Of a stretch of DNA of 64,000 nt, positions 7,980 through 62,108 are shown piece by piece. The position numbers and the translations under genes are program-made. The notes under the pieces were generated by a model that saw only the letters and a list, made by a program, of their open reading frames with translations, was not told where the DNA came from and ran no database searches. How positions within the stretch are numbered: the first letter of the stretch is position 1; the number at the start of each line of letters is the position of its first letter. The stretch comes from Terriglobia bacterium (lineage in GTDB: Bacteria; Acidobacteriota; Terriglobia; Terriglobales; Acidobacteriaceae): positions 1 to 64,000 of the forward strand of contig JAIQGK010000018.1 of NCBI GenBank assembly GCA_020072645.1. Direction: 5' to 3'.

Positions 7980-8179
7980 AAAGCAGACCTTACCGCTGAT
8001 AACGCAGATGACGCTGATTCAAAAGGGACTGCAGCTCACGATTTTTCTCTGTCTCTGTTGGCTCCCCTCTGGAAATATGCTGCGGTAGGACCAGTTCAGA
8101 TCACGTGCGATCACTCGTATCTCGTTCTTATCCGTGTTAATCCGTGTTATCCGTGAAATCAGCGGTAAGGTTTTGCTTT
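7980..8179. repeat. inverted-pair intergenic element (CRCRRAK family)
   Basis: Perfect 14-bp inverted repeat ACCTTACCGCTGAT at 7987-8000 and its inverse at 8158-8171. It extends outward imperfectly into GAAAGCAG on the left and TTTTGCTTTT on the right. Inside the arms, words such as CGCAGAT and (inverse) ATCCGTG recur at about 10-bp steps. It lies in the 420-bp gap between the divergent rpsO and the gene at 8300, so it may affect either promoter region. No reading frame inside looks real. Confidence 0.75.
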
Positions 8180-8182
8180 TCC

Positions 8183-8206
8183 GGTCACGCGCGATCACCC
8201 GATCAC
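8183..8206. repeat. GATC-rich dispersed word, copy 2
   Basis: GGTCACGCGCGATCACCC followed by GATCAC; the same words as 1372-1395 on the opposite strand. It directly abuts the inverted-pair element ending at 8179. Confidence 0.6.
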
Positions 8207-8299
8207 GGCGATCACCCGATCTTTCCGGGGGGTAAGACAACCTCCTGTCCCGTAACCGCTTCGGAATTATCAAGCCACCTGTCGTACTGGAGGGAACCT

Positions 8300-8725
8300 A
8301 TGATGAAAGTTTTAAAAATCGCCGCGTTTATGCTGCTCTGCGTCTGCTTTGTTGCAATGCAGACTCCCGCAACCGCTCAGACCCCAACCGCTGCCCAGCA
8401 AGCCGGCACTCAGGTTGAAAAGCCTATGCTGGAATTTGCCAACGCCAACTCCGCCAAAGTCGCCTGGACCTCAAAAGCCGGCCAAGACTTGGTTCTGCAG
8501 TTCAGCACCACTCCCGACTTTGGGTCCAACCCCCAGGCGGTGGATGCCATCGAGCACACGGGCGGCGACAATCACCGCGCGACTCTCACTAGCCTGCAAC
8601 CTAACACCACCTATTACATACGGATGGTAGACAAATCAGGACAGCCGGTTGGTTCGGTCTTCACATTCAAGACCCCGGCCCACGGCCAGCCACCGCTCCG
8701 CGAGCAGCCTTTGCAAGCAAAGTAA
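8300..8725 (+). CDS. secreted fibronectin type III-like protein
   Basis: 141 residues from the first of two adjacent ATGs, with GGAGGGAA ideally placed upstream. A longer frame runs in from 8144 but its extra residues come from repeat DNA. A hydrophobic signal peptide spans about residues 5-27 and ends in an Ala-rich cleavage region. The rest has the pattern of one fibronectin III domain: alternating strands, the NTTYYIRMVDKSG hallmark of the F strand, and GSVFTFKT at the end. Probably periplasmic or exported. It has no operon partner, and a terminator follows at 8895. The binding target is unknown. Confidence 0.75.
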   Translation: MMKVLKIAAFMLLCVCFVAMQTPATAQTPTAAQQAGTQVEKPMLEFANANSAKVAWTSKAGQDLVLQFSTTPDFGSNPQAVDAIEHTGGDNHRATLTSLQPNTTYYIRMVDKSGQPVGSVFTFKTPAHGQPPLREQPLQAK

Positions 8726-8745
8726 CTGGGCCGTTTACCTGCTTT

Positions 8746-8770
8746 CACCCTGCCAGCCAATGGCAGGGTG
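8746..8770. other. perfect 10-bp hairpin
   Basis: CACCCTGCCA (8746-8755) pairs perfectly with TGGCAGGGTG (8761-8770) across a five-base loop, 20 bp after the gene at 8300. No T run follows on either strand, so it may protect the mRNA 3' end or help the T-tailed terminator at 8895. Confidence 0.5.
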
Positions 8771-8829
8771 GAGGAGGGGTTTCAGTTAGCCTTCTTGTAA
8801 ATACCGATAATGCCAGTGAGATTGCGGGT

Positions 8830-8853
8830 GGTCGCGCGTGATCAGGTGATCGG
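8830..8853. repeat. GATC-rich dispersed word, copy 3
   Basis: GGTCGCGCGTGATCAGGT followed by GATCGG, in the same order as the copy at 1372-1395 with two substitutions. Confidence 0.55.
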
Positions 8854-8894
8854 CTGCTGCCGACGGTAAGGATTTATTGCCAATAATGCCAAAG

Positions 8895-8919
8895 ATCGCC
8901 CCAAAAATGGCGATTTTTT
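8895..8919 (+). terminator. Rho-independent terminator
   Basis: Stem ATCGCC (8895-8900) with GGCGAT (8909-8914) followed by six T on the plus strand. It would end transcripts of the fibronectin-like gene, just before the convergent gene at 8945. Confidence 0.6.
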
Positions 8920-8944
8920 CGATCATTATTATGACCCGGTGCCT

Positions 8945-10258
8945 CTACGTTTTAGGTCCCATCAATCGCGCAGTGCGGATTGCAGCAATCTTCTCCGGAA
9001 TCTGAAACGGGTGCTCGCTCAATCCATGTACAAATTTTTCGATATCATCCAACATACTATTGGTGAAATCAGGGTAGCGATAGCGAAGCAAGCCATTGAG
9101 CAACATGAGCGTATTGCTCAATCCGAACACCTTTATTTCTCCTTGTGGGAGCTCGGCTTTAGCCCTTTCAAGTGCTTCTTGCAAGTGTCCAACCTTCCAT
9201 AAAACGCAGACAATGAAGTAGCTCACGCGCAGATAGTCCTTTCCATCTAGGCGCGCGATCAGCGCCTTCACGAACTGATCCTGTTCATGAGGAGTCACCA
9301 GCCGATCATAGAAAACCAACAATGCTTCCAAATTGTCCGACCGAAGCTGGGAAGCATTAGGATCGTTGGAGATACTCTGGTTTTTGGGAGAATTGGGATT
9401 CCATGAATCGTTCCCGACACCCGTCATCTCGCGCCCATTGACAATCAAGTGAATACTTCCCAAGCCCCCGGCGATGCGCCCGCATTTGTCGTAGCGCGCT
9501 AGCTCCGATTGCAGAACAGCAGCAATCTCTCTTTCGATGGGATTTGGGATTGAAGAAACGACTTCAAGAGATGGGACTGCCGCTGTGGCTTGAGAAGCAG
9601 ATATCACACGCACATTAACGTTTGCACGTTGCTCGTGGCCTTCGTCGTCCCTCACACCGATGGTAACGCGGACTTCTTTACCAACTTTCTTCCGGGGTAC
9701 CCCCCTGATCATGATAGTTACACTGGCCGGCAACGATGTGTTTGGCGGGATGACATGCCCGGAATGGACAGCACTGCCGTAGATATTCCGATCTACAGCC
9801 CGAAGAGAAACATCGTCGTGCAAGATTTCCCCCCGAATGCGCGGGCTGATTAGTCTCGTATTCACCAAAGCGAGGGGATTCGCAGTGCGATTTTTTACGA
9901 GAAAACGTATAGCTACCTGCGTTACGATCGAGTCATCGGCCTGTTTCGAACTTGACCAGTGGCTCTGTTGCGGAATTGCTATAAGATGAAATCTCCGACG
10001 TGCCTCAGCGGAAGCCTTCCATGCGGGTATCTCATGGATCAAGATTCCGATCCCCCGAGCCACCGCGAGCGCGGCGAACACCACTCCACCCACAATAATC
10101 CACGGGCGAGCGGTTGCTGGCACCGACGCTGCAATGCCGGGAAAAAGGAGCAGTGCGCCTGCAGATATCGCCAAACCAAAGAGCAACCAGAGCGGCAGAT
10201 CCTTAAGTATCTCTAGTATCTTCGCCGTTGTTCCAGCACTTTCCTCTACTCCTGCCAT
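8945..10258 (-). CDS. unknown two-helix membrane protein with soluble C-terminal regions
   Basis: 437 residues, family not recognised. Two hydrophobic helices near the N-terminus (about 22-45 and 52-74) follow a short amphipathic segment. Residues about 90-220 look like a beta-rich, Ig-like soluble domain (many alternating Val/Ile/Arg strands). Residues about 240-430 look helical. The paired N-terminal helices recall membrane proteins such as SieB-type superinfection exclusion proteins, but that is only a resemblance of layout. The ATG has an AGGA about ten bases upstream. Base composition seems less GC-rich than the flanking housekeeping genes, and it sits among repeats and a 520-bp gene-poor stretch, so recent acquisition is plausible. 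Confidence 0.75.
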   Translation of the reverse strand: MAGVEESAGTTAKILEILKDLPLWLLFGLAISAGALLLFPGIAASVPATARPWIIVGGVVFAALAVARGIGILIHEIPAWKASAEARRRFHLIAIPQQSHWSSSKQADDSIVTQVAIRFLVKNRTANPLALVNTRLISPRIRGEILHDDVSLRAVDRNIYGSAVHSGHVIPPNTSLPASVTIMIRGVPRKKVGKEVRVTIGVRDDEGHEQRANVNVRVISASQATAAVPSLEVVSSIPNPIEREIAAVLQSELARYDKCGRIAGGLGSIHLIVNGREMTGVGNDSWNPNSPKNQSISNDPNASQLRSDNLEALLVFYDRLVTPHEQDQFVKALIARLDGKDYLRVSYFIVCVLWKVGHLQEALERAKAELPQGEIKVFGLSNTLMLLNGLLRYRYPDFTNSMLDDIEKFVHGLSEHPFQIPEKIAAIRTARLMGPKT

Positions 10259-10781
10259 CGCTTAAATTCCTACTCTAGCTCTCTAACTGCAACTCTGATA
10301 GGACTATAGCAGGATGTTCATTCGAACCGAACCCATTCCTAGCCTCGAGGACCGCTTTAGCCTCTCTGCTCAGGCCGGGCGGAGGACTCAGCCTCCTTGT
10401 TTCCTCTGGAACGGCTTCGGGAACCAAGCCAAATGATGGCGAGACGTGCCACGCGATTTTAGGATGAGATATTGTCTTATTTCATATTGATCCGTAGGCG
10501 AACAAAAGGTAGAATAGCAGCATTTAGCAGCTAGCAATTGGCAATTGCCAAACCGCAAGAACCAAGGGCCGAAGACGGGGCGGGATCGATGAAAACACGC
10601 AGGTTTAACGCGTTTTTCAGGTCAGTTTGACGGGATTCGGGATCGATTGAACGCGAAATTTCTCGGGTGGAACGGAATAAACCCTTTGGAATCATAGTCG
10701 AGGCCAAGGGGGGTGGGCTGTTCAAAAAAACAAGATTGCCAAAATTGCCATAATTTGTAATCGCCGGAATTGGAAAACGTG
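10259..10781. other. gene-poor, AT-richer intergenic region
   Basis: About 520 bp without a supportable gene. It contains AT-rich sequence around 10455-10520 and a short self-complementary run (CAATTGGCAATTGCC near 10533). A second ATTGCC-rich patch lies near 10735-10760, just before the Cys/His protein gene. I see no tRNA, riboswitch or terminator. Confidence 0.6.
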
Positions 10782-11288
10782 ATGATGGATGATCGATACA
10801 GTCAGGAACGCCCGAAGGAGAGCCGAAAAGCGCCAGAGGCGCGCTACGCGTATTACCGGCGGTGCCAGGTGTTCCGGCGGAATGGCGTGCAGTGCAAGGC
10901 ACCGGCGGAAACTGGCTCGCAGATTTGCCACGCGCATGCTGGACAACTGGCGATGGCGGTGCGTCGCGAACGGGAACGCAGGGCGGTGCTGGCGGAGGCG
11001 GTAGCGGAGATGCGCAAACGGGGCCGGCCGGAATGCGAAATGGCCGACCTGTTTACTAGCTTCAAAGGCATTCAAGTGACGACAGCAGTGATGGCACGAG
11101 CAGTGATCTCCGGCAGGATTGACTGCAAGACTGCGGGACAGATGGTGGTGCATTTGCAGGCGATGTCAAAACTGCTGTGGGTTTACCACAGAGCTCACAG
11201 AGGAGCACAGAGAGAAAAAGCTTTAACCACGAAGGACACGAAGAAGCACGAAGGGTTGCCGCAGATTTGCGCAGATGAGCGCAGATGA
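10782..11288 (+). CDS. small Cys/His (zinc-knuckle-like) protein with repeat-encoded C-terminus
   Basis: 168 residues from the ATG at 10782 (TTG at 10770 and GTG at 10779 are alternatives). The N-terminal third has Cys-x8-Cys-x9-Cys-x-His-x-His (RRCQVFRRNGVQCKAP...ICHAHA), a likely metal site. I recall such proteins as a common multi-copy family in acidobacterial genomes, without known function. A basic helix and a helical domain (about 88-140) follow. From about residue 135 the sequence (HRAHRGAQ, KDTKKHEG, CADERR) is translated from the intergenic repeat at 11183-11298, so the native C-terminus has been replaced or extended by repeat DNA. Confidence 0.6.
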   Translation: MMDDRYSQERPKESRKAPEARYAYYRRCQVFRRNGVQCKAPAETGSQICHAHAGQLAMAVRRERERRAVLAEAVAEMRKRGRPECEMADLFTSFKGIQVTTAVMARAVISGRIDCKTAGQMVVHLQAMSKLLWVYHRAHRGAQREKALTTKDTKKHEGLPQICADERR

Positions 11289-11298
11289 GCGCAGAATG
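11183..11298. repeat. tandem CRCRRAK-family repeat ends
   Basis: Three different word arrays in series, all in the same orientation: CACAGAG three times (steps of 9 and 10 bp), CACGAAG three times (9 and 10 bp), and GCAGAT four times at about 10-bp steps. Each opens with an ACCAC- or GCCGC-type end. The array forms the 3' end of the upstream gene. No inverted partner is seen nearby. Confidence 0.75.
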
Positions 11299-11460
11299 AG
11301 CAAACCAGAAGAAATGATGCCTGTGCCCGTCGCTGTGTCAAATGATGTTTCTCTGGGACGTGTAGCTGAGCGCGGAGGCGCGGAGGTTTTGCAGTTTGCA
11401 GCGATGGCTCTTGGAGATGGAAGCCCCGCGCATAGGCCGCCGGAATTGAAAGCAGCATGA
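11296..11460 (+). CDS. possible small protein downstream of the Cys/His gene
   Basis: 54 residues from ATG at 11296 (MSKPEEMMPVPVAV...). There is no clear ribosome binding site beyond a purine-rich stretch inside the repeat. It includes ERGGAEV, which resembles translated repeat. Its stop overlaps an ATG (ATGA at 11457) opening a 27-codon frame that ends near 11540. These may be degraded remnants; I do not recognise a family. Confidence 0.25.
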   Translation: MSKPEEMMPVPVAVSNDVSLGRVAERGGAEVLQFAAMALGDGSPAHRPPELKAA

Positions 11461-11946
11461 GTGAAGTTTACGAGTTTGAATGCTTCCGCGCTGGAAGCTG
11501 CTGGCTGTTATACGTCAGCAAAAGATCTTTGACAAATTGAATAATCATTTAGGAGATGCGGTTGGGGATTTACTGTCCTTGCGCCGCAGGCCCGCGCGCA
11601 GCTGCTCCCAGCAAGCCCGCTTTTGGCTGCTGGGACGCAATGCAGCGGAGCGCGCAAAAAATCCGCGCCGCGGCTTGCCGGGGATAGGCATCGGTACTCG
11701 CGCCGATAATCCAAGTGCTTGTCCCTGATCCTTATCTATCTGGCGCGTGCGTACGGCGTCCAACCCACGAGTCTCCACGGGCCAAAAGGTTACAACTTTT
11801 TAGTACACGTCCTGGCATGCTCCATTTCCGGAAACGAAACACAGAATCGGAACCATGATTCTTGTAGACCCCAGAAACTATAGTGCTCCAGTTCGGATCC
11901 TCGGCAGAATCTCAATCCGTTTCCGCAAATCTTTGGAGGCCAAGCA
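11461..11946. other. intergenic region before the cupredoxin gene
   Basis: Nearly 490 bp with no convincing gene. Short frames on both strands at 11480-11778 mirror one another and lack ribosome binding sites. The promoter of the gene at 11947 should lie in the AT-richer part around 11790-11880, but I cannot define boxes. Confidence 0.6.
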
Positions 11947-13788: not shown

Positions 13789-13822
13789 CCCTTGCCCATG
13801 GCAAGTTCATCGATCACTCAAG

Positions 13823-28208: not shown

Positions 28209-28325
28209 TCCGTCTCTCTGTGTCCTCTGTGGTAAATGAGCCTTCGCAGCTTTCAGATCCGTTCAATCCGTGTTCATCCGTGGTAAAGGTTTTGATCTTT
28301 CTCCCCGCTCCGCGGTGAAAATCGG
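28209..28325. repeat. tandem CRCRRAK-family repeat ends
   Basis: Three right-hand ends in series: CTCTGTGTCCTCTGTGGTAAA (28215-28235 region), ATCCGTGTTCATCCGTGG with TAAAGGTTTTGAT, and CTCCGCGGTGAAAATC. Each uses another 7-mer word but the same GTGGTRAA/GCGGTRAA closing. It fills the gap between xfp and the DinB gene. Confidence 0.75.
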
Positions 28326-30686: not shown

Positions 30687-31694
30687 TTATTGCGGCACGC
30701 CGTTTGGAAACAGCTTCTGTAGAAATTCTTTGTCAGAGGCCATGGGCTTGAAGCGATCAAAATCCACGTCTTCTTTCCATTGCTTGTCGAAATTTTTGGA
30801 ATCAATTGCCCTGGCCTTGGCAAATTCATCCAGCGATGCCGTCTTGTCGCCGAGTACGTAGTCCAGAAACGCCAGCCGCATGTGGCTGCCAAAGCTGTTC
30901 GGCGCATAACGCAGCGCCTGTTGCGCCGCGGCGCGCGCCTTCTCAATGTTGCCTGCGTCCAGCGCTTTGAACGTCTGGTCGCCATAGTTGTACGCCAGAT
31001 TCAAATCAAGCAGCCGCCGCAATTCCGTAAACGGATCAGGATTATCGTCAACATTGATATAAATGTAGCGATCATTATTAATGTTGCGTCCCTGGCCCTT
31101 GCTCACCACCAGCATGGACGCGGACTGCCGTCCACGAGCATCGCCCCCGGCGGCATCACCGGCCTTGAGCGCCGCAAAAAGTTTTTCTGCCAGCTCACCT
31201 TGTGAAGCGTCAAAAGCTTTGCCCATGGCTTCCGGCACCTGCGGCCCCACCAGGATATTTCCTTGTGCCGACCACGTCTTGCCTTGCCGATCGCCCGCCC
31301 ACTTGGGCGCGTTCGGTCCGGTGTAAGCCGCCACATTTCCTTTCGCGTCGACGATCGCCACCTGGCGTCCGTCCTTGCCTGGAAACTTGTCATCGGCCAG
31401 AATTTTCTTCAGGACTTCCGGGGCCGTCAGTCCTTGACGCAATAAATCCAGCGCCTGCTGCCCGTAGCCGACGTTGACATTCGCCTGCGTGGCCACTGCG
31501 CCCACGTCCGCCATGGCCCATGGCACCACCGATCCCACAGAGAAATATCTTGAAGCCACGGCCACGCCCATCTCACCCGTTCGCGGATCAATGGCGACGA
31601 TGGAAAATGTAGAGACCGGCGGCAGCGGCGATGCAACAGCAGCTCCGCTCACAGCAAAAACCATGATCAATAAAAGCAGCAAATAGTTCTTCAT
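30687..31694 (-). CDS. secreted DUF1028 family protein (Ntn-hydrolase-like)
   Basis: 335 residues from the ATG at 31694, which has GGAG eight bases upstream; a longer frame from 31967 runs through repeat DNA and is not real. Signal peptide about 1-22, then TFSIVAIDPRTGEMGVAVAS, the DUF1028 hallmark with a candidate N-terminal nucleophile near the mature end. The Ntn-like domain extends to about 225; residues about 235-330 are helical and TPR-like. Family function is not established; some members sit with peptidases or amidases. Confidence 0.88.
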   Translation of the reverse strand: MKNYLLLLLIMVFAVSGAAVASPLPPVSTFSIVAIDPRTGEMGVAVASRYFSVGSVVPWAMADVGAVATQANVNVGYGQQALDLLRQGLTAPEVLKKILADDKFPGKDGRQVAIVDAKGNVAAYTGPNAPKWAGDRQGKTWSAQGNILVGPQVPEAMGKAFDASQGELAEKLFAALKAGDAAGGDARGRQSASMLVVSKGQGRNINNDRYIYINVDDNPDPFTELRRLLDLNLAYNYGDQTFKALDAGNIEKARAAAQQALRYAPNSFGSHMRLAFLDYVLGDKTASLDEFAKARAIDSKNFDKQWKEDVDFDRFKPMASDKEFLQKLFPNGVPQ

Positions 31695-31758
31695 CAACCC
31701 ACTCCAATAAGTCCTGAGAATTCGACAAACTCCTGCTTCTGCTCTGCTTGGCATTCGA

Positions 31759-31797
31759 TCCTTTGCGTCCTTTGCGACCTTTGCGGTGAAATTCAAG
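31759..31797. repeat. CRCRRAK-family repeat end (CTTTGCG variant)
   Basis: CTTTGCG three times at 9-bp steps, closing GCGGTGAA. It overlaps the last codons of the DUF1634 gene by a few bases, and lies in the leader of the DUF1028 gene. Confidence 0.65.
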
Positions 31798-33803: not shown

Positions 33804-34154
33804 CAGAAGAATCAGTCTAACTGATCGTTAGACCTGTTTTGGAATCGCCAGGAACAAGGACGATACGCTTGCACTATCCCTCACGGGGTGGAGCAGGCCT
33901 TTTAGGCCTGCGGTATGCCGCTAGAAAAACTTGGGCTTTAGCCCCTGAGGCGAAAAACCACCCTGCAAGAATTCACCACGTTCTCCGCTTAACAAAATAA
34001 ATCCGCCGCTTAACTTTATTCGTTTCTTCAAAACGCTTCGCTTTTTTGTTGCATCCACTTTCGCAGCGCGACTATAAAGAAAAGACAGGCCGCGCCCGTG
34101 TTATCAGCACGAACGCAGCCCTAACCACAAATCACCTTCCGTGAAAGGCAACCT
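33804..34154. other. intergenic region with GGTGGAGC repeat
   Basis: 350 bp between divergent genes. The part near 33880-33960 is the dispersed repeat annotated separately. The rest (33965-34130) is AT-richer and probably holds the promoters, but no boxes stand out. Confidence 0.55.
33886..33955. repeat. GGTGGAGC dispersed repeat, intact copy
   Basis: Contains a perfect hairpin GCAGGCCT-TTT-AGGCCTGC (33893-33911) and a second smaller one GGGCTTTAGCCC (33943-33954 region). The order of blocks matches 17933-17995. Two hairpins on one repeat suggest an RNA-level role. Confidence 0.7.
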
Positions 34155-34493
34155 ATGGCTGCAATTGATGGTACCCAAAAGGCAGAGATATATGAAACTC
34201 TGTCATCTCTCAACATGGCCTTTGCTGGAATCCTCCAGCACCTTCAAACGCTCCAACAAACCGGGCTGTTCAAATCCAAAACAGCCAAACTTTTTCCGAG
34301 TTTCACTCAGGAGCTCCAGGCAGAGTTTAACCAGGAATTTCTTGAAGACCTGCACCAGCTTGAGCTTGACGATTGGGGCCGGTACGGAAAAGTAAGGCAA
34401 CGATGGGAAAAGGAACTCCGCGATCCAGATGACGTGTTCATTCAAGCCGAAGAACGCAAAAAGCAACTTGCAAAACAGCGCAAGAAGCGCTGA
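34155..34493 (+). CDS. conserved-looking hypothetical helical protein
   Basis: 112 residues, soluble, strongly helical and charged, ending in a Lys/Arg-rich tail (KKQLAKQRKKR). AAAGG precedes the ATG by about eight bases. No family recognised. The codon use fits the neighbours, and the frame is clean. It stands alone between two repeat elements. Confidence 0.6.
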   Translation: MAAIDGTQKAEIYETLSSLNMAFAGILQHLQTLQQTGLFKSKTAKLFPSFTQELQAEFNQEFLEDLHQLELDDWGRYGKVRQRWEKELRDPDDVFIQAEERKKQLAKQRKKR

Positions 34494-34552
34494 TTCACGT
34501 GGGCTTTGCACAAAAAGCAGTAGTGATTCAATTCAAACTGGGCCACTACCCA

Positions 34553-34681
34553 AAAAGCAAAATCTCACCACGGATGAACACAGATCGCGCGGATTTATAA
34601 ACTTCAAAACAGTCCTGCTTGAAATTTTTTGATCCGTGTAAATCAGTGGTTATCCGTTTTATCCGTGGTGAGCGTTGCTTT
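34553..34681. repeat. inverted-pair intergenic element (CRCRRAK family)
   Basis: Left arm AAAAGCAAAATC then TCACCACGGAT (to 34575); right arm ATCCGTGGTGAGCGTTGCTTT (34661-34681). The inner 12 bp of each arm are perfect inverses. Words CACGGAT and ATCCGTG recur inside at about 10-bp steps. The element ends exactly at the stop codon of the next gene on the minus strand. Confidence 0.78.
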
Positions 34682-50744: not shown

Positions 50745-51374
50745 TTATCTAAACCAATTCAATCCCAACTGAAACTGAACGGTGTTGATTCCCGGATTCG
50801 GGACCGTCAAACCGGCGTTGGAAATGTGCTCATAGCGAACACCGGCAGTGAAAGCGCGGCGATCATTATTGAAGAACTGAAAGCCCAGAGTCGCGTGCGT
50901 TACAAAGTTTACATGCGACGTATTCACCGGTACCGCGTGATTGCTGAAAAGCACTCCGCCGCCGAGTTCAAGATACGGGACAGTACGCGCGGAACTGGTG
51001 AAGTTCCACTTTAAGTTAAGCGGATTAAACGCGGCAGCATAGACATTTTGAGCTGGCGCTGGCTGCCACAGGTAGTAAAGCGGAATAAGGTCAGCGGACC
51101 ATTCAAAATTCCCGCGCAGGAAGCCGCCGAGATGATCATCAGTCAACACCTTGCCTAGGCGGATGCCTGCGTTGATGGCATGCGTATCTTTTGTTCCACC
51201 CGGGACGCTGAAGCCGCCGCCAGCCCACACGCCGAAGTCCCAGGGTTGGCCATCAAGTGGTTTGGTTTGTGCGCTAGCAATCACCGACGTTGCAATAAAA
51301 CCAAAAAGCAAAATCGCACCGCGGAGGCGCGGAGACGCGGAGAACAGCAATCGCCAGATGACGGTTGAAGGCAT
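50745..51374 (-). CDS. pagL: lipid A 3-O-deacylase (PagL family)
   Basis: 209 residues. AGGAG seven bases before the ATG fixes the start. Signal peptide about 1-36, then a beta barrel rich in alternating aromatic strands. The hallmark is YEHISNAGLTVPNPG with His183 and Ser185, which match the PagL catalytic His and Ser. The acidic residue expected about 14 positions after the His looks like Asn197 here. PagL removes the 3-O acyl chain of lipid A in the outer membrane. Residues about 10-25 of the signal peptide (LFSASPRLRGAILLF) are translated from a dispersed repeat (51304-51346). Confidence 0.85.
   Translation of the reverse strand: MPSTVIWRLLFSASPRLRGAILLFGFIATSVIASAQTKPLDGQPWDFGVWAGGGFSVPGGTKDTHAINAGIRLGKVLTDDHLGGFLRGNFEWSADLIPLYYLWQPAPAQNVYAAAFNPLNLKWNFTSSARTVPYLELGGGVLFSNHAVPVNTSHVNFVTHATLGFQFFNNDRRAFTAGVRYEHISNAGLTVPNPGINTVQFQLGLNWFR
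51304..51346. repeat. CRCRRAK-family repeat end inside the pagL signal peptide
   Basis: AAAAGCAAAATC followed by GCACCGCGGA and CGCGGAG three times at 8-bp steps. The 5' part is nearly identical to the left arm of the element at 34553. Here it lies wholly inside the coding part of pagL, read on the other strand. Confidence 0.75.
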
Positions 51375-55216: not shown

Positions 55217-56410
55217 ATGACCCCAGTCACTACCCCAACAGAATTGCGGCTGGCCAAACGTATGGCCCGCCTGGGAACTGAAACCGCTTTTGAAACCCTT
55301 GCCAAGGCCCGCGCTCTTGAGGCGCAGGGCAGAAGCATTATCCATCTGGAGATCGGCGAGCCGGATTTTGACACACCGGCAAATGTAATTGAAGCCGGAG
55401 TGGACGCCATCCACAAGGGATACACGCATTACATGCCGTCCGCCGGAATGCCGGCCCTGCGTGAAACCGTGGCAGCGGAAGTTACGCGCACACACGGCGT
55501 GCCGGTAGCCGCGGACGAAGTCGTCATCGTGCCGGGCGGCAAACCGACGATCTACTTTACTTTTACCGCGCTGGTGGAAGAAGGCGATGAGGTCATTTAT
55601 CCCAACCCCGGCTTTCCTATTTATGAGTCGCTGATCAACTTCACCGGCGCCACGCCCGTTCCCTTGCAGATGCGGGAAGAAAAGGATTTCCGGCTAGACC
55701 CCAACGAGTTGGCTGACCTGATCACTGACCGCACCAAGCTGATTGTGCTCAACTCTCCGCACAATCCCACCGGCAGCGTGGTGACAGAGCAGGATGTGAA
55801 AGACATTGCCGCGGCCATAGGCGATCGCGACATCATGGTGCTCTCCGATGAAATTTACAGCCGCCTGATTTTTGAAGGCCGCCATCATTCGCTCATGTCG
55901 CTTCCCGGCTGGAGAGATCGCGTGATCATGCTGGATGGCTGGTCCAAGACCTATGCCATGACCGGTTGGCGCCTGGGCTATGGCGTAATGCGCAAAGATC
56001 TGGCCGCGCAGTTTGGCCGATTGATGACCAACGTGAACTCATGCAGCGCCAGCTTTACTCAAATGGCAGGCATGGAAGCACTCAAGGGTGACCAGGCGTC
56101 CGTGGACAACATGCGTGAACAGTTTCACGCGCGGCGCGATAAGTTCATTACCGGACTCAACAACATCAAGGGCTTCAGCTGCCGATTGCCGCATGGCGCG
56201 TTCTATGCTTTCCCCAACGTGCAGAAGACAGGATGGACATCTAAAAAGCTGGCGGAAGCAATGCTGAATGAAGCTGGCGTGGCATGTCTTGCCGGCACGG
56301 CGTTCGGCAAATTCGGCGAAGGCTATCTGCGCTTCAGCATCGCCAATTCCATGGAAAACCTGGACGAAGCGCTCAAGCGTATTGATGGCTGGGCTAAGAA
56401 GAACCTGTAG
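55217..56410 (+). CDS. class I PLP-dependent aminotransferase
   Basis: 397 residues, fold-type I. EIGEPDFDTPANV, NSPHNPTG, SDEIYSRLIF and the PLP Lys244 in GWSKTYAMTGWRLGYG. Closest to AspC/AlaT-like transaminases. Start ATG, purine-rich AAAGAGAAAAATA leader. Probably co-transcribed with the GT2 gene. Substrate not resolved. Confidence 0.93.
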   Translation: MTPVTTPTELRLAKRMARLGTETAFETLAKARALEAQGRSIIHLEIGEPDFDTPANVIEAGVDAIHKGYTHYMPSAGMPALRETVAAEVTRTHGVPVAADEVVIVPGGKPTIYFTFTALVEEGDEVIYPNPGFPIYESLINFTGATPVPLQMREEKDFRLDPNELADLITDRTKLIVLNSPHNPTGSVVTEQDVKDIAAAIGDRDIMVLSDEIYSRLIFEGRHHSLMSLPGWRDRVIMLDGWSKTYAMTGWRLGYGVMRKDLAAQFGRLMTNVNSCSASFTQMAGMEALKGDQASVDNMREQFHARRDKFITGLNNIKGFSCRLPHGAFYAFPNVQKTGWTSKKLAEAMLNEAGVACLAGTAFGKFGEGYLRFSIANSMENLDEALKRIDGWAKKNL

Positions 56411-56420
56411 CTAAACCCTA

Positions 56421-56607
56421 TCGCCGCAGATTTACGCTGAGCAACGCAGATCAGAATCACAGTTAAACTTGAAATTCATTTTCAATGCGGCAACTTCAAC
56501 GGTTGCCGCACTTGTTTCTGTAGCCACAAGTTGTGATCTATAAGGTCGCTAGACTCGCATCACTGCTTTTGAGCATCCAGAGTTGATCAGCGGTTATCAG
56601 CGGCGAA
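56421..56607. repeat. weak inverted-pair intergenic element
   Basis: Left TCGCCGCAGATTTACGCTGA (56421-56440) with CGCAGAT words; right ATCAGCGGTTATCAGCGGCG (56587-56606), an approximate inverse. It fills the gap between the aminotransferase and the dehydrogenase gene. Weaker than the pairs at 7980 and 34553. Confidence 0.5.
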
Positions 56608-56617
56608 TACTTTTCTC

Positions 56618-57748
56618 ATGTCCAAAACATTTCGCATCTATGCTACCTGTCATATCGGAGGCGCAGCGGAAAACCTGCTACGCGAGCGTGGCTATGACCT
56701 TGAGATTTTTCCCGGCCCGGAAGCACCGCCCAAAAACGTGATCCTGGAAAAAGTCGGCTCTGGCATCGACGGGCTGATCACCACGTTGCGCGATCCCATC
56801 GATGCAGAAGTGTTTGAAGCTGGTAAAGGCACGCTGAAAGTGGTTTCGCAGGTCGCGGTCGGCTTTGACAATATCAATCGCGCTGAAGCCAACCGCTACA
56901 AGGTCCCGTTCACCAATACGGCGGAAGTCCTCAATGACGCGACAGCTGAATTCACCTTCTTAATGATGGGAACACTGTCACGCCGCATGTGGGACAGCGA
57001 GAAGATGGTGCGCGACCAGAAGTGGGGCGCGTGGCACCCGTTTCTTCCCTTCCTGGGAGACGAAATTTCCGGCAAGACGATTGCCGTGATCGGCACCGGA
57101 CGCATTGGCCTGGCGCTGATCAAAAAATGCATTGGCTTTGATATGAACGTGCTTTGCTACGATCCGGTTTATCAAAATCATCTTTTCGCTGCACACGTGC
57201 AGCAGGTGATGGACCTGCGGGCAAAGCTCGGGATGGTAAAGGAAAAGAATTGGATCAAATACGTAAACCTGGAAGAAGCGCTGTCAGAAGCTGATTATGT
57301 GAGCCTGCACGTGCCTCTTGTGCGTGACGGAAAGTCACCCACCTACCACCTGATCAATGAGCGCACGCTGAAGCTCATGCGCAAGGATGCCTACCTGATC
57401 AATGCCGCGCGCGGCCCGGTGGTTGACGAAAAAGCATTGGCCAAAGCGCTTAAAGAACGCTGGATCGCCGGAGCTGCTCTGGACGTATTCGGAAAAGAGC
57501 CGCTGCCGGCAGACTCGCCGCTGCTCGATCCCCAGATTGAAGATCGCTGCCGGCTGTTTCACCACTTTGCCAGCGCCGGTCGGATTACGCGGCTCTCCAC
57601 CGATCCGGGAAAAGGTATGGCTGGACGCTGCATTCAAGGGCTGCTCGACGTGCTGGAAGGAAATTACGGCGGCGACAAAACGCTGATGCCGTACGTGGTG
57701 AACAAAGAAGCGTGGACAGGATCGGGCGCGGACGGTGAAGGGATTTAA
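56618..57748 (+). CDS. D-2-hydroxyacid dehydrogenase
   Basis: 376 residues. Rossmann motif VIGTGRIGLALIKKC (about 157-171), VAVGFDNINRAEAN, catalytic Arg in NAARGPVVDE, Glu in FGKEPLP, and FHHFASAG where the catalytic His lies. The extra residues about 195-220 (VQQVMDLRAKLGMVKEKN) are not in short family members such as GyaR. Likely a glyoxylate/hydroxypyruvate or phosphoglycerate-type reductase. The ATG has no clear ribosome binding site; the 200-bp leader is repeat DNA. Confidence 0.9.
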   Translation: MSKTFRIYATCHIGGAAENLLRERGYDLEIFPGPEAPPKNVILEKVGSGIDGLITTLRDPIDAEVFEAGKGTLKVVSQVAVGFDNINRAEANRYKVPFTNTAEVLNDATAEFTFLMMGTLSRRMWDSEKMVRDQKWGAWHPFLPFLGDEISGKTIAVIGTGRIGLALIKKCIGFDMNVLCYDPVYQNHLFAAHVQQVMDLRAKLGMVKEKNWIKYVNLEEALSEADYVSLHVPLVRDGKSPTYHLINERTLKLMRKDAYLINAARGPVVDEKALAKALKERWIAGAALDVFGKEPLPADSPLLDPQIEDRCRLFHHFASAGRITRLSTDPGKGMAGRCIQGLLDVLEGNYGGDKTLMPYVVNKEAWTGSGADGEGI

Positions 57749-57774
57749 AACGCGATTCATCATCACAAAATTAA

Positions 57775-57796
57775 AGGACGGCATTTCTGCCGTCCT
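57775..57796. terminator. bidirectional terminator hairpin
   Basis: Nine-bp perfect stem AGGACGGCA (57775-57783) with TGCCGTCCT (57788-57796), loop TTTC. Read on the minus strand it is followed by TTAATTTT, so it serves the BON gene best. It also lies 26 bp past the dehydrogenase stop. Confidence 0.75.
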
Positions 57797-57817
57797 CATC
57801 CAAATGGCTAACGCAAT

Positions 57818-58363
57818 TTAAGAAGATCTGCGCTTTGCGCCTTTCACATCCAGCTCATTCACAACCTGTTGGACGTTAGGAACGCTGGCGGCAAGTTTTT
57901 CCACCTGCTGGCGCTGTCCGGCTGTATCAACATCGCCTTTCAACGTGAGCACGCCATTCTTGGCGTCAAAGCGGATGTGCTGTTTTTCCAGTCGGTTCGC
58001 GATGATCACAGCCTTGAAGTCTTTTTCGATCGCGGAATCTATATTGGAATCGATTTTCTTTGCATCGCCTTCCACGCCGTCCGGACGAACGCCGATTTCA
58101 TTTGAAACCACAAACCCGCTGGCCGCGCTCTTGGCCACGTCTTCAGCCTTGTTTTTATCTTCCTGGGTCTTCACGTCGCCGCTGAGAGTGACAAGTTGTT
58201 TGTCATTGTTCGTGGCGACCTTTACATCTTTGTAGCCGGCATTTGCCAGGGCTTTAGAAACCTGGTCTTTCACGTCAGGTGTGTTGGCTTTATTGGATGT
58301 GCAGCCAATCGCCACACAAAGCAGAAATGCGGCAAGAGTTGCCATTAAGTTTTTCACGCGCAT
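57818..58363 (-). CDS. BON-domain lipoprotein
   Basis: 181 residues. Lipobox VAIGC with Cys21 after a hydrophobic leader, so the protein is likely anchored to a membrane by a lipid. Two BON domains follow, about 30-95 and 108-172, each with the V-x-L-x-GDV core ([22 protein letters not shown]). BON proteins bind membranes and help envelope stability under stress. AGGAGG about eleven bases before the ATG. Confidence 0.9.
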
Positions 58364-58457
58364 ACAGAGAGCCTCCTAGTCGGTTGAGTCGTCGGTTAGA
58401 ACCCAGGGGAGGTTCTCTTGATTTGGATGCGGGCTGTGACTCAGAGGAGGGCTGCTG

Positions 58458-59156
58458 TCAGCGCGTAATGACCGGCGCGGTGATCATCGAGCGGAAAATT
58501 TTTGCGCCGTCTGCCGAGCCAAGCAGAGATTCACTGCAGCGGTCGGGATGCGGCATCATGCCAAGAACGTTGCTTCCTTCATTGCAAATGCCGGCAATGT
58601 TATCGAGCGATCCGTTGGGATTGGCTTCCGCAGTGATCTCTCCTTCCGGAGTTGAATAGCGGAAGACGATGCGGTTCTGGCGCTTGAGCGCTTCGAGCGT
58701 CTGAGCGTCGCAATAGTAATTCCCTTCCATGTGGCCGATGGGAATCCTGAGCACCTCGCCTTTTTTGCACGCATTGGTGAACGGCGTTTCAGCATTTTCC
58801 ACGCGCAGATCGACAAACTTGCAGACATATTTCAGTCCCGCATTACGCAAGAGAGCGCCGGGCAGAAGGCCCGCTTCACACAGGATTTGAAAGCCATTGC
58901 AGATGCCGATGACCAAACCGCCGGATGCGGCAAATTTTCGCACCTGGTCCATGATCGGCGCGAATTTGGCAATCGCTCCGGTGCGCAGGTAATCGCCATA
59001 GGCAAAGCCGCCCGGCACAATGATGGCGTCACAATTTTCCAGGTCGTGCGAATCATGCCAGAGCATCGTCGCCTGCTGGCCGGTGGCGGCAATGGCCGCG
59101 TTGTAGCTATCCTGATCGCAATTGGAGCCGGGAAAGATGATGACGCCAAATTTCAT
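58458..59156 (-). CDS. purQ: phosphoribosylformylglycinamidine synthase glutaminase subunit PurQ
   Basis: 232 residues, class I glutamine amidotransferase. Triad Cys86 (GICNGFQ), His203 (MPHPDR) and Glu209. N-terminal [15 protein letters not shown] is typical. It supplies ammonia to PurL in purine synthesis. No purS or purL adjoins. The start lies only ten bases from a repeat end (59166), which therefore occupies the promoter/leader region. Confidence 0.96.
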
Positions 59157-59165
59157 AGTTTTATT

Positions 59166-59589
59166 TTAACCACAGAGGGCACAGAGAAACACAGAGAATT
59201 TGATGAGATTGGTCCTGGTTATCCCCTAACTCCGTGTCCCTCTTACTGTTCGAAACCCTGCCCGCATTGGCTCGCGAACTCGAGCAACTGCTCATTGAAG
59301 CAAACGAGCCAGCTTTGTCAGCACAGGTACGTACGCTGACGATTGTTGATCGGTGCCGGTGTGGCGATGATTTTTGCGCGACGCTTTACACTGAACCACG
59401 TCCTCAGGGATCCTACGGCCCCAATCATCGCAACGTAGAACTCAGCCCAGCCGACGGAATGATCATCCTTGATGTCGTTGGCGCCAAAATAGCGTGTGTC
59501 GAAGTTCTCTATCGCGACGAGATTCGAAAGGCCCTTCATGCTGCGCTTCCTTGAATGGCAACTCTGCGCTCCTCCGTGCCCTCTGTGGT
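59166..59589. repeat. inverted-pair element enclosing a small gene
   Basis: Perfect 14-bp inverted repeat ACCACAGAGGGCAC (59166-59179) and its inverse (59576-59589). Inside the left end, CACAGAG occurs three times at 9- and 10-bp steps. Unlike the other pairs, the 396 bp between the arms hold an open frame (59234-59554). Directly to the right lies a transporter gene missing its N-terminal half. Confidence 0.7.
59234..59554 (+). CDS. small Cys-rich hypothetical protein inside an inverted-repeat pair
   Basis: 106 residues, GTG start without a clear ribosome binding site. A helical N-terminus (ETLPALARELEQLLIEANE) is followed by IVDRCRCGDDFCATLYT, a C-x-C-x4-C cluster that may bind metal, and then beta-like strands (MIILDVVGAKIACVEVLY). 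I recall such single-domain proteins as uncharacterised. Both flanks are inverted repeat ends (59166-59179, 59576-59589), so it may be cargo of that element, or just be bracketed by chance. Confidence 0.55.
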   Translation: MSLLLFETLPALARELEQLLIEANEPALSAQVRTLTIVDRCRCGDDFCATLYTEPRPQGSYGPNHRNVELSPADGMIILDVVGAKIACVEVLYRDEIRKALHAALP

Positions 59590-59593
59590 AAAC

Positions 59594-60085
59594 ATGGTTA
59601 TGGATTGGCGCTCCCACGCACGCACCACCGGCTCGGCGCTCAAGAACTGGTTTATCGCCCAGTGCTATGACTCTCTGGCCGTAGCAGTTCTATGGCTGGT
59701 GGGCTTATGGATCATCGGCATTCCCTGGGCACCGCTGTGGGCCATTCTGGGCGGCGTGCTTCAGTTCATTCCGAACTTCGGCGTGATGCTCTCATTGATC
59801 GGGCCGGCGCTGCTGGGAGCTTTGAATCATGATCATATGCGATTTTTCTATGTGCTGATTCTGTTCGCGGTGATCATGGTCACCGACGGTCTGTTCCTTC
59901 AGCCGTACCTGATGAAGCGCACCGCCAAAGTCCCGTTCTGGGCGGCGTTGATCGCGCCGATTATTTTGGGGATCATTATTCCCTTCTGGGGAGTGTTGCT
60001 GGCCCCGCCGCTGCTGGCGGTGGTCTATGCGTTTCGCAGGAAAGCTGAAACTCCGCCGGATCAGCGTCGGCTGGATGTTCGATAG
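59594..60085 (+). CDS. C-terminal half of an AI-2E family transporter
   Basis: 163 residues from the ATG at 59594 (ATGs at 59555 and 59600 are alternatives; the first lies before repeat DNA). It has the second half of the UPF0118/AI-2E exporter fold: IIGIPWAPLWAILGGVLQFIPN, GALLNHD-like NHDHMRFFYV, and PFWGVLLAPPLLAVVY. Complete proteins are about 350 residues with eight helices, so the N-terminal half is missing. It starts right at the right arm of the inverted pair, which suggests truncation by insertion or recombination. May be non-functional. Confidence 0.6.
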   Translation: MVMDWRSHARTTGSALKNWFIAQCYDSLAVAVLWLVGLWIIGIPWAPLWAILGGVLQFIPNFGVMLSLIGPALLGALNHDHMRFFYVLILFAVIMVTDGLFLQPYLMKRTAKVPFWAALIAPIILGIIIPFWGVLLAPPLLAVVYAFRRKAETPPDQRRLDVR

Positions 60086-60264
60086 CCACGTCTGCGTTTA
60101 GGCGCGGGTGGCTCGGGCGGAAACAGGGCTTTGATAGTCAAAAATAACCAAAACAGGAGCCATACCAATGAAATAACCGACGGTTCCAGGTCCAAGGCGC
60201 GATCTGCATACTTATCCTCGTTAACGAACCTCCCAAAAGAACTGGCGAAAGCTACCGCGCTCAA
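60061..60264 (-). CDS. possible small membrane protein
   Basis: 67 residues, one hydrophobic helix (about 29-47) and a basic, Pro-rich tail. It overlaps the next small frame by 44 bp in another register and the transporter end by 25 bp. No ribosome binding site. Possibly the out-of-frame continuation of its upstream neighbour. Confidence 0.3.
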   Translation of the reverse strand: MSAVAFASSFGRFVNEDKYADRALDLEPSVISLVWLLFWLFLTIKALFPPEPPAPKRRRGYRTSSRR

Positions 60265-60433
60265 AAATCACAAAGAACACAACTATCATCAACAGGCTTA
60301 CTTTCTGTCCTACGCTGAAAACCGCCTTGCCTGACGCAATATTTCTATAGAACCTGCCTTCATTCAGGTTGGTGTCAGGAAACACGTTGCGTTGGCGATT
60401 GATTACGTCTCGCTCCCATTCCTTGAGGCTCAT
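60221..60433 (-). CDS. small single-helix membrane protein
   Basis: 70 residues. Hydrophilic N-terminus (MSLKEWERDVINRQRNVFPD), then one membrane helix at about 43-58 (KVSLLMIVVFFVIFERG). The NRQRNVFPDT...NEGRFYRNI pattern resembles small acidobacterial membrane proteins I recall, without known function. Divergent from yebC. Confidence 0.55.
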   Translation of the reverse strand: MSLKEWERDVINRQRNVFPDTNLNEGRFYRNIASGKAVFSVGQKVSLLMIVVFFVIFERGSFRQFFWEVR

Positions 60434-60548
60434 GGCGCGAAATGATACAACAGCTCGTGCTATAATCTACCTTGTTTTCCTGCGCTTATGGCGCGTGCCG
60501 CCTCTCCTTGTTGGCTGCGTAAATCTTTGATTCTTTGAGGTTATCCAC

Positions 60549-61295
60549 ATGTCCGGCCACTCAAAATGGGCCACAATCAAGCATAAAAAGGGCGCGCTGG
60601 ACGCGAAGCGCGGCAAGATCTTTACCCGTCTGATCAAGGAAATCACCATGGCCGCCAAGAGCGGCGGGGGCGACGTTGAAGGCAATCCGCGCCTGCGCAC
60701 GGCGGTTGCTGCCGCCAAGGCTGAGAACATGCCTGCAGACAACATCAAGAGGGCCATCCAGCGCGGCACCGGCGAACTTGAAGGCGTGAGCTATGAAGAA
60801 ATCACCTTTGAGGGTTATGGTCCCGGCGGCGTGGCCCTGCTGGTGGAAGTCACCACCGACAATCGCAACCGCACGGTAAGCGAAATCCGCCATGCCTTTA
60901 CCAAGGGCGGCGGAAACATGGGTGAAGCCGGCTCCGTCTCGTGGATGTTCCAGAAAAAAGGCTCCATCGTGGTTTCCAAAGCCAAGTCCAAGGAAGATGA
61001 TCTAATGAACATCGTTCTTGAGCAGGGCGGCGATGACCTGAGCGACGATGGCGAGAACTGGGAAATCACCACTGCTCCCAATGCCTTTGAAACCGTCCTG
61101 GAAGCGGTAAAAAAATCCGGCGCTGAGATTGTGCATTCAGAAATCGGCATGATTCCGCAGACTTATATGAAGCTGGAAGGCGCTGCCGCCAACTCCATGA
61201 TCCGCCTGCTGGAAACGCTGGAAGATACCGACGACGTTCAGAACGTTTATTCAAATTTTGACGTTGACCAGAAGACGCTGGAAGAAGTCAGCTAA
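60549..61295 (+). CDS. YebC/PmpR-family protein
   Basis: 248 residues, complete family length. [25 protein letters not shown] start, [18 protein letters not shown] and the [12 protein letters not shown] block are invariant family features. YebC-family proteins act as regulators and, as shown for some members, relieve ribosome stalling at polyproline. GAGG about eight bases before the ATG. In many genomes it adjoins ruvC, but not here. Confidence 0.95.
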
Positions 61296-61357
61296 GCCAG
61301 CACATCAATTGACGTTGTTAAACAACCGCCGGAGAACTCACAAGGCGGTGGTTTACT

Positions 61358-61744
61358 TCACCAGATTCGTCGGACACTGTACGAATCAAACGCCACGTCA
61401 TTGCTAAGGATCGGAACGTTCTCCGCCTGGGCCTGGGCAATCAGCATACGATCAAACGGGTCTTTGTGCGGCCCCGGCAATAAGCCAGCGCGCACAGCGT
61501 GGTCGGTGGAAATAGGCAGACCTTCAAAACGTTCCCGGGCCATGTAGCCAGCAAAGTACGCCAGCAGATCGCCGGCGTCCGGTAGCTTTCCGATCCGGAA
61601 CTTTGTCGCGATCTCCCAGGCCGAAGCGGAGCTTACAAGGACAGTATTGGCTGCTCGTGCAAGGTGCTTCCTCGCCGATGCGGGCAGCGCGGGATCATCC
61701 GTCAGCCACCAGAGAAGCGCGTGCGTGTCAATGAGCAAGCGCAT
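61358..61744 (-). CDS. PIN-domain toxin (VapC-like)
   Basis: 128 residues. Acidic PIN residues Asp6 (LLIDTHALLWW), Glu44 (SAWEIATKFRIGKL), Asp95/Asp98 (HKDPFDRM) and Asp116. The DTHALLWW and PFDRMLIAQA signatures place it with PIN toxins that pair with Phd/YefM antitoxins. Expected to be a metal-dependent ribonuclease. It lies 6 bp after the antitoxin gene. Confidence 0.92.
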   Translation of the reverse strand: MRLLIDTHALLWWLTDDPALPASARKHLARAANTVLVSSASAWEIATKFRIGKLPDAGDLLAYFAGYMARERFEGLPISTDHAVRAGLLPGPHKDPFDRMLIAQAQAENVPILSNDVAFDSYSVRRIW

Positions 61745-61750
61745 TCGCAG

Positions 61751-61981
61751 CTATTCCCAGCGCGCCAGTTCTTCGTCTGCTAGCGGTTCAAAAAACTCCG
61801 GGCCAGCATGTAATTTGCCGCGCAACGCGCCCGGCTGACGACGACCTTTTACATCGGCTATGGGGACAAGGCGGACAACCGGCTCAGGGCCGCGTGCGAT
61901 CACAACCTCTTCCCCCTGGCACGCTTGTTCTATCAACTTCGAGAGGTTGGTTTTAGCTTCATGGATGGTAAAGGTCTTCAT
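61751..61981 (-). CDS. Phd/YefM-type antitoxin
   Basis: 76 residues. N-terminal MKTFTIHEAKTNLSKLIEQA and GEEVVIARGPEPVVRLVP are the DNA-binding Phd fold; the C-terminal part from about 48 (ALRGKLHAGPEFFEPLADEELARWE) should wrap and block the toxin. It is the first gene of the pair and normally represses the operon. A likely operator is at 61986-62009. Confidence 0.92.
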   Translation of the reverse strand: MKTFTIHEAKTNLSKLIEQACQGEEVVIARGPEPVVRLVPIADVKGRRQPGALRGKLHAGPEFFEPLADEELARWE

Positions 61982-61985
61982 AATG

Positions 61986-62009
61986 ATTAGCTAATCTATA
62001 TTAGCTAAT
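61986..62009. promoter_or_regulatory. paired palindromic operator of the toxin-antitoxin operon
   Basis: Palindrome ATTAGCTAAT occurs twice (61986-61995 and 62000-62009), separated by CTAT, so centres are 14 bp apart. It lies 5-28 bases upstream of the antitoxin start. Phd-type antitoxins bind such paired palindromes in cooperation with the toxin. Confidence 0.75.
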
Positions 62010-62077
62010 TGGAGTAGCGGATTGCAAGAGGAATTTATAAAGACGTGCTCTCAAATCGTATTGCTTGGCCCCCACGT

Positions 62078-62108
62078 CTCTCCGCGTCTCCGGTGTGGAT
62101 TTTGCTCT
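62078..62108. repeat. CRCRRAK-family repeat end (TCCGCG variant)
   Basis: CTCTCCGCGTCTCCGGTGT then GGATTTTGCTCTTCC, i.e. the right-hand end with the TTTTGCT tail. It lies 36 bp before mutS, in its leader. Confidence 0.65.

Follow-up and report, generated by a model that had tools for sequence, protein, structure and literature searches.

Arrays of a seven-base word lie scattered through the window, a 64,000-nucleotide stretch from a Terriglobia bacterium (contig JAIQGK010000018.1; genome G000), and they are probably the recognition ends of elements that carry GxxExxY (TIGR04256/PF13366), a family predicted to encode a single-domain PD-(D/E)XK nuclease. GxxExxY was the one gene enclosed by the array units, and the arrays would have spread across many bacterial phyla by way of the unit's nuclease, as in a REPIN/RAYT-like element with a different enzyme. 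The initial annotation of the window had proposed that a protein lines up along the arrays or that they are transposition ends. This came near the mark: the arrays form paired, inward-facing ends and the unit's own protein is apparently the reader of the word.

The linkage of arrays to GxxExxY genes was characterized in the taxonomic family of the window, where 25 of 41 genomes contained the gene (TIGR04256). Arrays were counted as linked when they faced inward and lay within 300 bp of the gene, and 30 loci, a subset of all matches, were examined for GxxExxY and for a control. Inward arrays flanked GxxExxY on both sides at 24 of the 30 loci and on at least one side at 28, and randomised family loci gave 0.0 on both sides. 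The control was a four-helix-bundle gene, TIGR02436, which had been a candidate for the array partner and which was present in 31 of the 41 genomes in up to 11 copies per genome (loci L031-L060). It had inward arrays on both sides at 0/30 loci and on either side at 1/30, and was rejected as the partner. The median excess of two-unit array matches was 36.7 per Mb in the 25 family genomes with a GxxExxY gene vs. 8.4 in the 16 without (p = 1.1e-4), and the excess tracked the number of gene hits (Spearman 0.76, 41 genomes). The genome of the window had four GxxExxY hits, one of them a fragment, and a two-unit excess of about 690 over the control; arrays flanked all three of its full-length genes. 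In the stretches examined, 13 of 17 inward pairs, spanning 51-259 bp, contained no GxxExxY gene.

The same linkage was found across prokaryotes in the best 80 of 585 loci, taken from one genome per species with the pattern G[PH]G[LF]LES[AVT]Y and representing close relatives only. Inward arrays were present on both sides at 49 of these loci and on at least one side at 70, compared with 0.1 and 1.5 at randomised loci. Fifteen phylum-level groups are represented among the 80 loci, and 12 of them contained a both-sided locus: Pseudomonadota (12/13), Bacteroidota (13/30), Chloroflexota (6/7), Planctomycetota (4/5), Acidobacteriota (3/5), Verrucomicrobiota (3/5), Cyanobacteriota (2/3), Ignavibacteriota (2/4), and, with one such locus each, Electryoneota, Omnitrophota, Chlamydiota and an archaeon (Methanobacteriota by NCBI ranks). 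No both-sided locus was detected in Hydrogenedentota (0/2), Chlorobiota (0/1) or Fidelibacterota (0/1). The detector found no array at 12 of the 110 loci of both sets; when viewed by eye, six of these had diverged (L071, L107, L112, L134, and L136) or outward-facing (L072) arrays, one had CACGGGG words (L029), two had partial or one-sided arrays (L097 and L106) and three had none that was clear (L021, L098, and L114).

The two ends of a unit matched each other. The left and right consensus words were identical in 51 of 73 two-ended loci, where 12.6 were expected and the maximum of 2000 shuffles was 21, and the mean steps of the left and right arrays were correlated (Spearman 0.83). GxxExxY had no match among phage records, three loci in viral contigs and matches in eight plasmid records, so within the collections searched it is not mainly a phage or plasmid module, and that candidate was rejected. 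On plasmid records, GxxExxY genes were also seen standing in gene rows (L265, from Bacteroides finegoldii, and L266), one of them adjoining radA.

GxxExxY is predicted by profile and structural model to be a RecB/Cas4-type PD-(D/E)XK nuclease of about 120-125 residues. Matches were well above the curated cut-offs: locus L120, betaproteobacterial and of CACAGAG type, scored 150.7 bits against TIGR04256 (cut-off 35) and 145.1 against PF13366 (cut-off 22), L014, of CGCAAAG type, scored 142.2 and 137.6, and L030 scored 140.7 against PF13366. The columns E, D, E-x-K and Q-x3-Y, which PD-(D/E)XK and RecB-type motifs would predict, were invariant or at least 90% conserved in alignments of 26 and 62 sequences, and the first three of these are presumably the PD-(D/E)XK active-site residues. 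The AlphaFold2 model (pLDDT 97, pTM 0.88) has a predicted RecB-like fold, and the best Foldseek matches in the PDB were SSO0001, which we take to be a Cas4, LHK-exo, AdnAB and lambda exonuclease (E 0.013-0.057). A sequence search of the PDB for a solved relative returned nothing up to E 0.1, and the PADLOC defence profiles gave only weak similarity to Cas4 and PDC-M36A. Cas4 nucleases carry an Fe-S cluster; GxxExxY has a single near-invariant cysteine column (C28) and thus shows no sign of a Cas4-like cluster.

The word covaried with two residues of the protein. The residue-base rules were formed on 95 loci by a column scan, in which residue 3 stood out for word position 5 and residue 11 for position 7, and totals are given over 115 rows that include 21 later loci from the genus of the window. 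The table leaves out loci that lack arrays, those that contain a stop (L009, L081, and L126; L251 in the genus) and the misaligned L091. Of 33 matches in the genus, 24 entered the comparison and 21 were retained; L014 and L030 belonged to the first set, and L257, the fragments L246, L254, and L259, and matches without a locus were left out. Threonine at residue 3 occurred with G5 in 67 of 67 rows, and serine, cysteine or alanine occurred with A5 in 26 of 39; the Fisher table excludes eight rows that are gapped at residue 3 and one that has G there. Tyrosine at residue 11 occurred with T7 in 12 of 12 rows, and other residues with T7 in 0 of 102. In the later genus rows taken separately, the pairing of T3 with G5 held in 13/13 and that of Y11 with T7 in 9/9, residues other than Y11 went with G7 in 12/12 and with T7 in 0/12, and S/C3 went with A5 in 5/7, cysteine (two rows) having joined its class after being seen. 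In the model, residues 3 and 11 both fall within helix 1 (residues 2-16 of L120). Sister loci were compared as 22 contrasting pairs and 22 control pairs of similar identity, and residue 3 ranked first of 118 columns, differing in 12/17 vs. 4/19. Where only one sister had threonine, threonine went with G5 in 11 of 11 pairs. Residue 90 had strong raw counts with word position 2 and was set aside as a candidate, as it was not among the leading columns in the sister contrasts.

The arrays themselves are real and far above chance, as the initial annotation held. A strict detector (C[AG]C[AG][AG]A[GT], at least two units, step 8-11) found 14 arrays in the window, nine of them with three units, compared with a mean of 1.52 and a maximum of 9 in 50 first-order Markov randomisations, which contained no three-unit array. 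Three of the 14 (at 11371, 38363, and 42852) have two units and no closing motif and may be chance hits. The two-unit pattern with a 10-bp step, CRCRRAKNNNCRCRRAK, in which a three-unit array can count twice, matched 157 + 159 = 316 times in the 6.4-Mb genome, vs. 3 + 4 = 7 for the reversed pattern used as control, and exceeded its control in nine of the nine genus genomes compared. Seven of the nine sites listed initially were recovered by the strict detector and an eighth, 56421-56607, when position 4 was allowed to be any base; the ninth, 62078-62108, was recognised by eye only.

Several details of that description needed revision. Its word, C-R-C-R-R-A-K, is better written C-R-C-N-R-A-K, since position 4 is free: the 530 units flanking GxxExxY genes had A in 293, G in 149, C in 45 and T in 43. 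The steps of 8-10 bp given for the arrays are indeed the commonest around GxxExxY genes (9 in 136 cases, 8 in 106, and 10 in 74), and within the 8-11 bp that the detector admits a step of 11 also occurred (23). The step depends on word class, being 8 in 27/37 steps for CACGGAG and 9 in 15/19 for CGCCGAG. The suggestion that the units line up on one face of the DNA is therefore not supported in that form, as the step is often 8 or 9 bp and successive units would drift around a helix of 10.5 bp per turn. The closing motif and the tail were both found, and each was recast: the former belongs to the first unit as its outer edge and reads TTYACC in the commonest forms flanking GxxExxY genes, and the latter, AAAAGCAAAAYC, is the clearest instance of an A-rich block located at roughly -18 to -8, visible in the base composition of 47 arrays from the window and nine stretches of the same genome picked for holding arrays. 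GATC-rich short repeats (GATCACCCGATCACGGCGATC and kin) often stood just outside array tails (8183-8221 in the window; L181, L182, and L184). Pairs of CGCGAAT were nested in or directly behind CGCAGAT arrays (L182:3948-4120, L188:4345-4572, and L147 at the 56421 site), as if one class had inserted into another.

Array presence or absence varied among species of the genus, and the content of a site changed while its location was kept. At the 59166 site, the left end has a common starting point, following TTTTAAC or ATTTAAC, in the window and in relatives G047, G041, G045, and G043, the contig of the last ending soon past it. All six units carry G5 in the window, and both ends carry A5 throughout in G047 and G041. 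The two ends enclose an orphan open reading frame (ORF) of 106 residues in the window; in G047 and G041 the space measures about 100 and about 25 bp, respectively, too short for this ORF. G045 has the left array followed by an RraB-like ORF (Pfam RraB) and no matching right array. No array was found there in G048, G044 or G046, nor by the detector in G042, where a right-end-like stretch was seen by eye. At a second site (G000:C3:599393), a CACAAAG/CACGAAG pair is kept in G041 and in G047 (where the right array carries an insert) and mixed words occur in G044; no passenger gene lies there in these three genomes or in G000. G043 has the right array and a DUF7674-like ORF (below the Pfam cut-off), and G045 has a DUF4279 ORF and no array. 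The small ORFs at array sites (L198:544-975 (-), DUF7674, below cut-off; L200:403-837 (-), DUF4279; L157:2942-3349 (-), RraB) may be passengers.

Decay of the gene between kept arrays was observed at one site. At G000:C3:602971, GxxExxY is intact in G044, and remnants of 211 and 107 bases remain in G000 and G043, respectively, between kept CGCAAAG-class arrays; G047 and G041 have neither gene nor arrays. Gene-less pairs thus look like deletion products. At the 7980 site, the closest relative (G047), with flanks 98% and 92% identical, is 226 bp shorter and lacks both arrays, and no array occurred within 400 bp past the left anchor in the other seven relatives (for G042, within the 136 bp up to the contig end). 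The 34553 site is absent in G043 and G048. At the 56421 site, paired arrays were seen by eye in G041 and G046, only the right half in G044, and other or extra words (CGCGAAT) in G043 and G048.

The ends of GxxExxY units have none of the marks of DDE transposition: inverted symmetry extends no more than 3-6 bp outside the first unit, and a search of the 73 GxxExxY pairs for target duplications detected none (highest z 3.0 over 816 combinations of offset and length). One array-bearing repeat, at 34552..34673 (+) in the window with an array at each end, is of another kind. It has at least 15 further copies in this genome and at least nine in G047, and the 15 copies aligned with it show outer inverted repeats, GGCTTTGCACAAAAA. 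The outer inverted repeat GGCTTTGYRCAAAAA was found at 17 places in the genome with at most one mismatch, compared with three places for its control. Both ends were recognised in 7 of the 15 copies, among which an exact 9-bp flanking repeat was present in one and an 8/9 match in another (best z 2.5 across the offsets tried). This repeat is probably a miniature inverted-repeat transposable element (MITE) of some insertion sequence, with arrays inside.

A full unit, on the reading that we favor, would consist of an inward array of two to four words, one gene for a nuclease of about 125 residues and an inward array of the same word. The GxxExxY protein would bind the word, with several protomers abreast at 8-10 bp steps on each end, and the nuclease would cut DNA at the arrays. 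Breaks at array sites would be repaired from another array-bearing copy, and this copying would carry elements, truncated pairs lacking the gene, and small unrelated passenger genes to array sites or exchange them there. The gene-less arrays, those of the window included, would be non-autonomous offspring of GxxExxY units, like the REPINs of RAYTs, and the 34552-34673 subfamily would additionally have been incorporated into an ordinary-looking terminal-inverted-repeat MITE. We infer direct binding, cutting at the arrays and spread by repair from the patterns described above. In favor of repair, sister species have different words and small genes at one and the same array site, and PD-(D/E)XK enzymes are not known to join strands; independent insertion into a favored site would look similar. 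It is conceivable, and we propose it tentatively, that these units form an undescribed class of mobile DNA, with both-ended units in 12 phylum-level groups, a RecB-like nuclease, a first-helix code (T3 for G5, S/C/A3 permitting A5, and Y11 for T7) and repair-copied exchange at array sockets that take up small passenger genes.

A number of observations weigh against this reading. Outward-facing arrays occurred at GxxExxY genes of the cross-prokaryote set upstream in 19/80, downstream in 21/80 and on both sides in 8/80, and in the family upstream in 5/30, downstream in 0/30 and on both sides in 0/30. No array lay within 400 bp at 3 of 27 genus loci viewed (L243, L253, and L257), and two genomes of the family without any GxxExxY hit (G003 and G032) are rich in arrays. 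All Foldseek E-values exceeded 0.001, with TM-scores of about 0.5 or less. The residue-base link is not independent of shared ancestry. The residue-3 sister contrast had p = 0.0036 uncorrected, and in a tree built without columns 3 and 11 there were four independent pairs on supported branches, a mean of 2.2 going the expected way and 0 the other; with only four such pairs, significance is out of reach. The association of Y11 with T7 belongs mostly to one clade, with one outside member by eye (L089), and agreement of the words was weak at positions 2 and 4 when neighbors were limited to 70% identity. A prediction set beforehand failed. CRCTGAT arrays were expected to be abundant in genomes that hold a nuclease flanked by CRCTGAT and scarce in the others; those predicted high had 147 (G041), 60 (G043), 50 (G045), 45 (G046) and 67 (G047), and those predicted low had 96 (G000), 190 (G042), 66 (G044) and 20 (G048). 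Either past nucleases left arrays behind or position 4 is not read, the latter fitting the free choice of base there. The G047 genome keeps short stretches resembling the outer tail of the element at the 7980 site, so that loss there is as possible as gain in the window. Some units also look old, as four genera share what is apparently the same place (L001, L003, L005, and L006). The CGCCGAG-type GxxExxY units at these loci were seen beside the 3' end of asnS, a gene named by eye, and the shared location suggests an old insertion or a favored site.

The arrays could instead serve the host, with GxxExxY as a word-specific DNA-binding regulator, a nucleoid protein or a genome-guard nuclease and the arrays as selected sites near genes. 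At three sites of the window, arrays do lie within about 15 bp of the stop or start of a long ORF (34667/34681; 56410/56425 and 56602/56618; 59156/59171), the 59166 site persists across species with the word changing at both ends together, and the passages of a paper on Geobacter propose regulator sites (PMC2700814). Array presence that differs among species of one genus, and the existence of nested and tandem arrays, make such a role unlikely.

The 34552 family, with its outer inverted repeats and its one exact and one 8/9 flanking repeat among seven copies, would also fit arrays that are internal parts of ordinary DDE-type MITEs, with GxxExxY as a carried passenger gene. Extending this to the arrays at large is distinctly improbable, as GxxExxY pairs have neither such outer repeats nor target duplication, and as word and residue covary and the association spans phyla. 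Paired inverted arrays near stop codons could also fold in a transcript, and the pairs might then be RNA hairpins (terminators, processing or stability signals) whose link to the gene is incidental. We hold this to be very improbable, given that single and same-strand tandem arrays exist (11183, 28209, and 51320) and that matched words around an identified nuclease gene would be left unexplained.

Within the window, inward-facing pairs were present at four of the nine sites noted initially (7980, 34553, 56421, and 59166), and a fifth pairing, 31527-31785, is loose and may be chance. At the first site, the left array, CGCTGAT/CGCAGAT/CGCTGAT at 7994..8018 (+), is paired with a right array of CGCTGAT followed by three CACGGAT at 8130..8164 (-), which has an outward TTACC and a AAAAGCAAAACC tail. 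The MITE-like repeat at 34552 has a left array of CACGGAT class at 34569..34594 (+), found by the strict detector, and a degenerate right array of the same class at 34632..34667 (-), recognised by eye. At the 56421 site, the left array, of CGCAGAT class with position 4 free, lies directly past the stop of ORF 55217-56410 at 56425..56451 (+), and the right array, two CGCTGAT units at 56586..56602 (-), lies directly ahead of the start of ORF 56618-57748. Both arrays of the 59166 site were found by the strict detector, three CACAGAG units at 59171..59196 (+) and CACAGAG/CACGGAG/CGCAGAG at 59562..59587 (-); the possible passenger ORF between them, 59234..59554 (+), encodes 106 residues and has no Pfam or NCBIfam match.

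The remaining sites hold single or tandem arrays, all but the last found by the strict detector. Three tandem arrays make up the 11183 site, each of three units on the forward strand (CACAGAG at 11187..11212, CACGAAG at 11228..11253, and CGCAGAT at 11260..11286), and two make up the 28209 site, each of two units on the reverse strand (CACAGAG at 28216..28231 and CACGGAT at 28266..28282). Three CGCAAAG units lie at 31761..31785 (-); at the orthologous place, similar arrays were seen by eye in G047 and G043 and none in G048. The single array at 51320..51342 (+), three CGCGGAG units with an A-rich tail at 51303-51319, lies inside the 5' end of ORF 50745-51374 (-), where it would encode part of a signal-peptide-like start; its counterpart by eye is a broken array in G047 and one unit in G043. 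The array at 62078..62108 (-) is single, degenerate and of CGCGGAG class, recognised by eye only. Another, distinct dispersed repeat of about 500 bp lies at 33984-34500 and has many partial copies in this genome and in G047; it holds ORF 34155-34493 (112 residues), which has no Pfam or NCBIfam match. No tRNA genes were found in the window, nor any Rfam family above threshold.

These results give recurrent, unexplained intergenic repeats (CACAGAG, CACGAAG, CGCAGAT, and kin) a candidate enzyme, and give the abundant GxxExxY family, whose role is unexplained, a candidate DNA target. If the first-helix code is true, the protein, at about 120 residues, would be a compact natural reader of a DNA word; should the movement model hold, the element would need no transposase or recombinase of the known classes.

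The statement of the initial annotation that the arrays have no accepted function agrees with the literature found, in which a guess of 2009 at regulator sites in Geobacter stands alone. Passages of that paper describe 21 paired, opposite-strand sites in Geobacter metallireducens, at variable distance and with three tandem TCTCCGTS[Y] each, as predicted regulator-binding sites (PMC2700814). TCTCCGTS[Y] is the reverse complement of a CACGGAG-type word and the layout, compared by the text of the legend, is the same; however, those sites concern one genome and are read as regulator sites, and the passages draw no link to a nuclease. In the part of another paper that we consulted, a reverse transcriptase (RT) classifier met a GxxExxY gene and the role of the family is not treated (PMC8934634), and the heptanucleotide repeats of Beggiatoaceae described in a third have a different word, TAACTGA (PMC4679880). 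Among the matches listed for CACAGAG or CCACAGAG repeats in open-licence PMC papers, nothing was apparently relevant.

Compared with the MITEs of DDE insertion sequences, the 34552-34673 repeat is alike in being multi-copy with outer inverted repeats, whereas the arrays of GxxExxY units differ in having no long outer inverted repeats and no target duplications. GxxExxY resembles the RecB nucleases of the Cas4 and lambda-exonuclease kind in its predicted fold and motif set and has weak similarity to Cas4 profiles, but unlike Cas4 it is a stand-alone domain with one near-invariant cysteine and is associated with DNA arrays of its own. RAYTs are HUH (Y1) enzymes that act on REP hairpins. The likeness to REPIN/RAYT systems lies in many gene-less palindromic pairs, few nuclease genes flanked by the same repeats, and repeat classes matched to nuclease classes. 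The difference lies in the enzyme, which by profile is of PD-(D/E)XK rather than HUH (Y1) type, and in the ends, which are iterated 7-mers: by eye, single arrays are direct iterations of one word rather than a hairpin per repeat as in REPINs.

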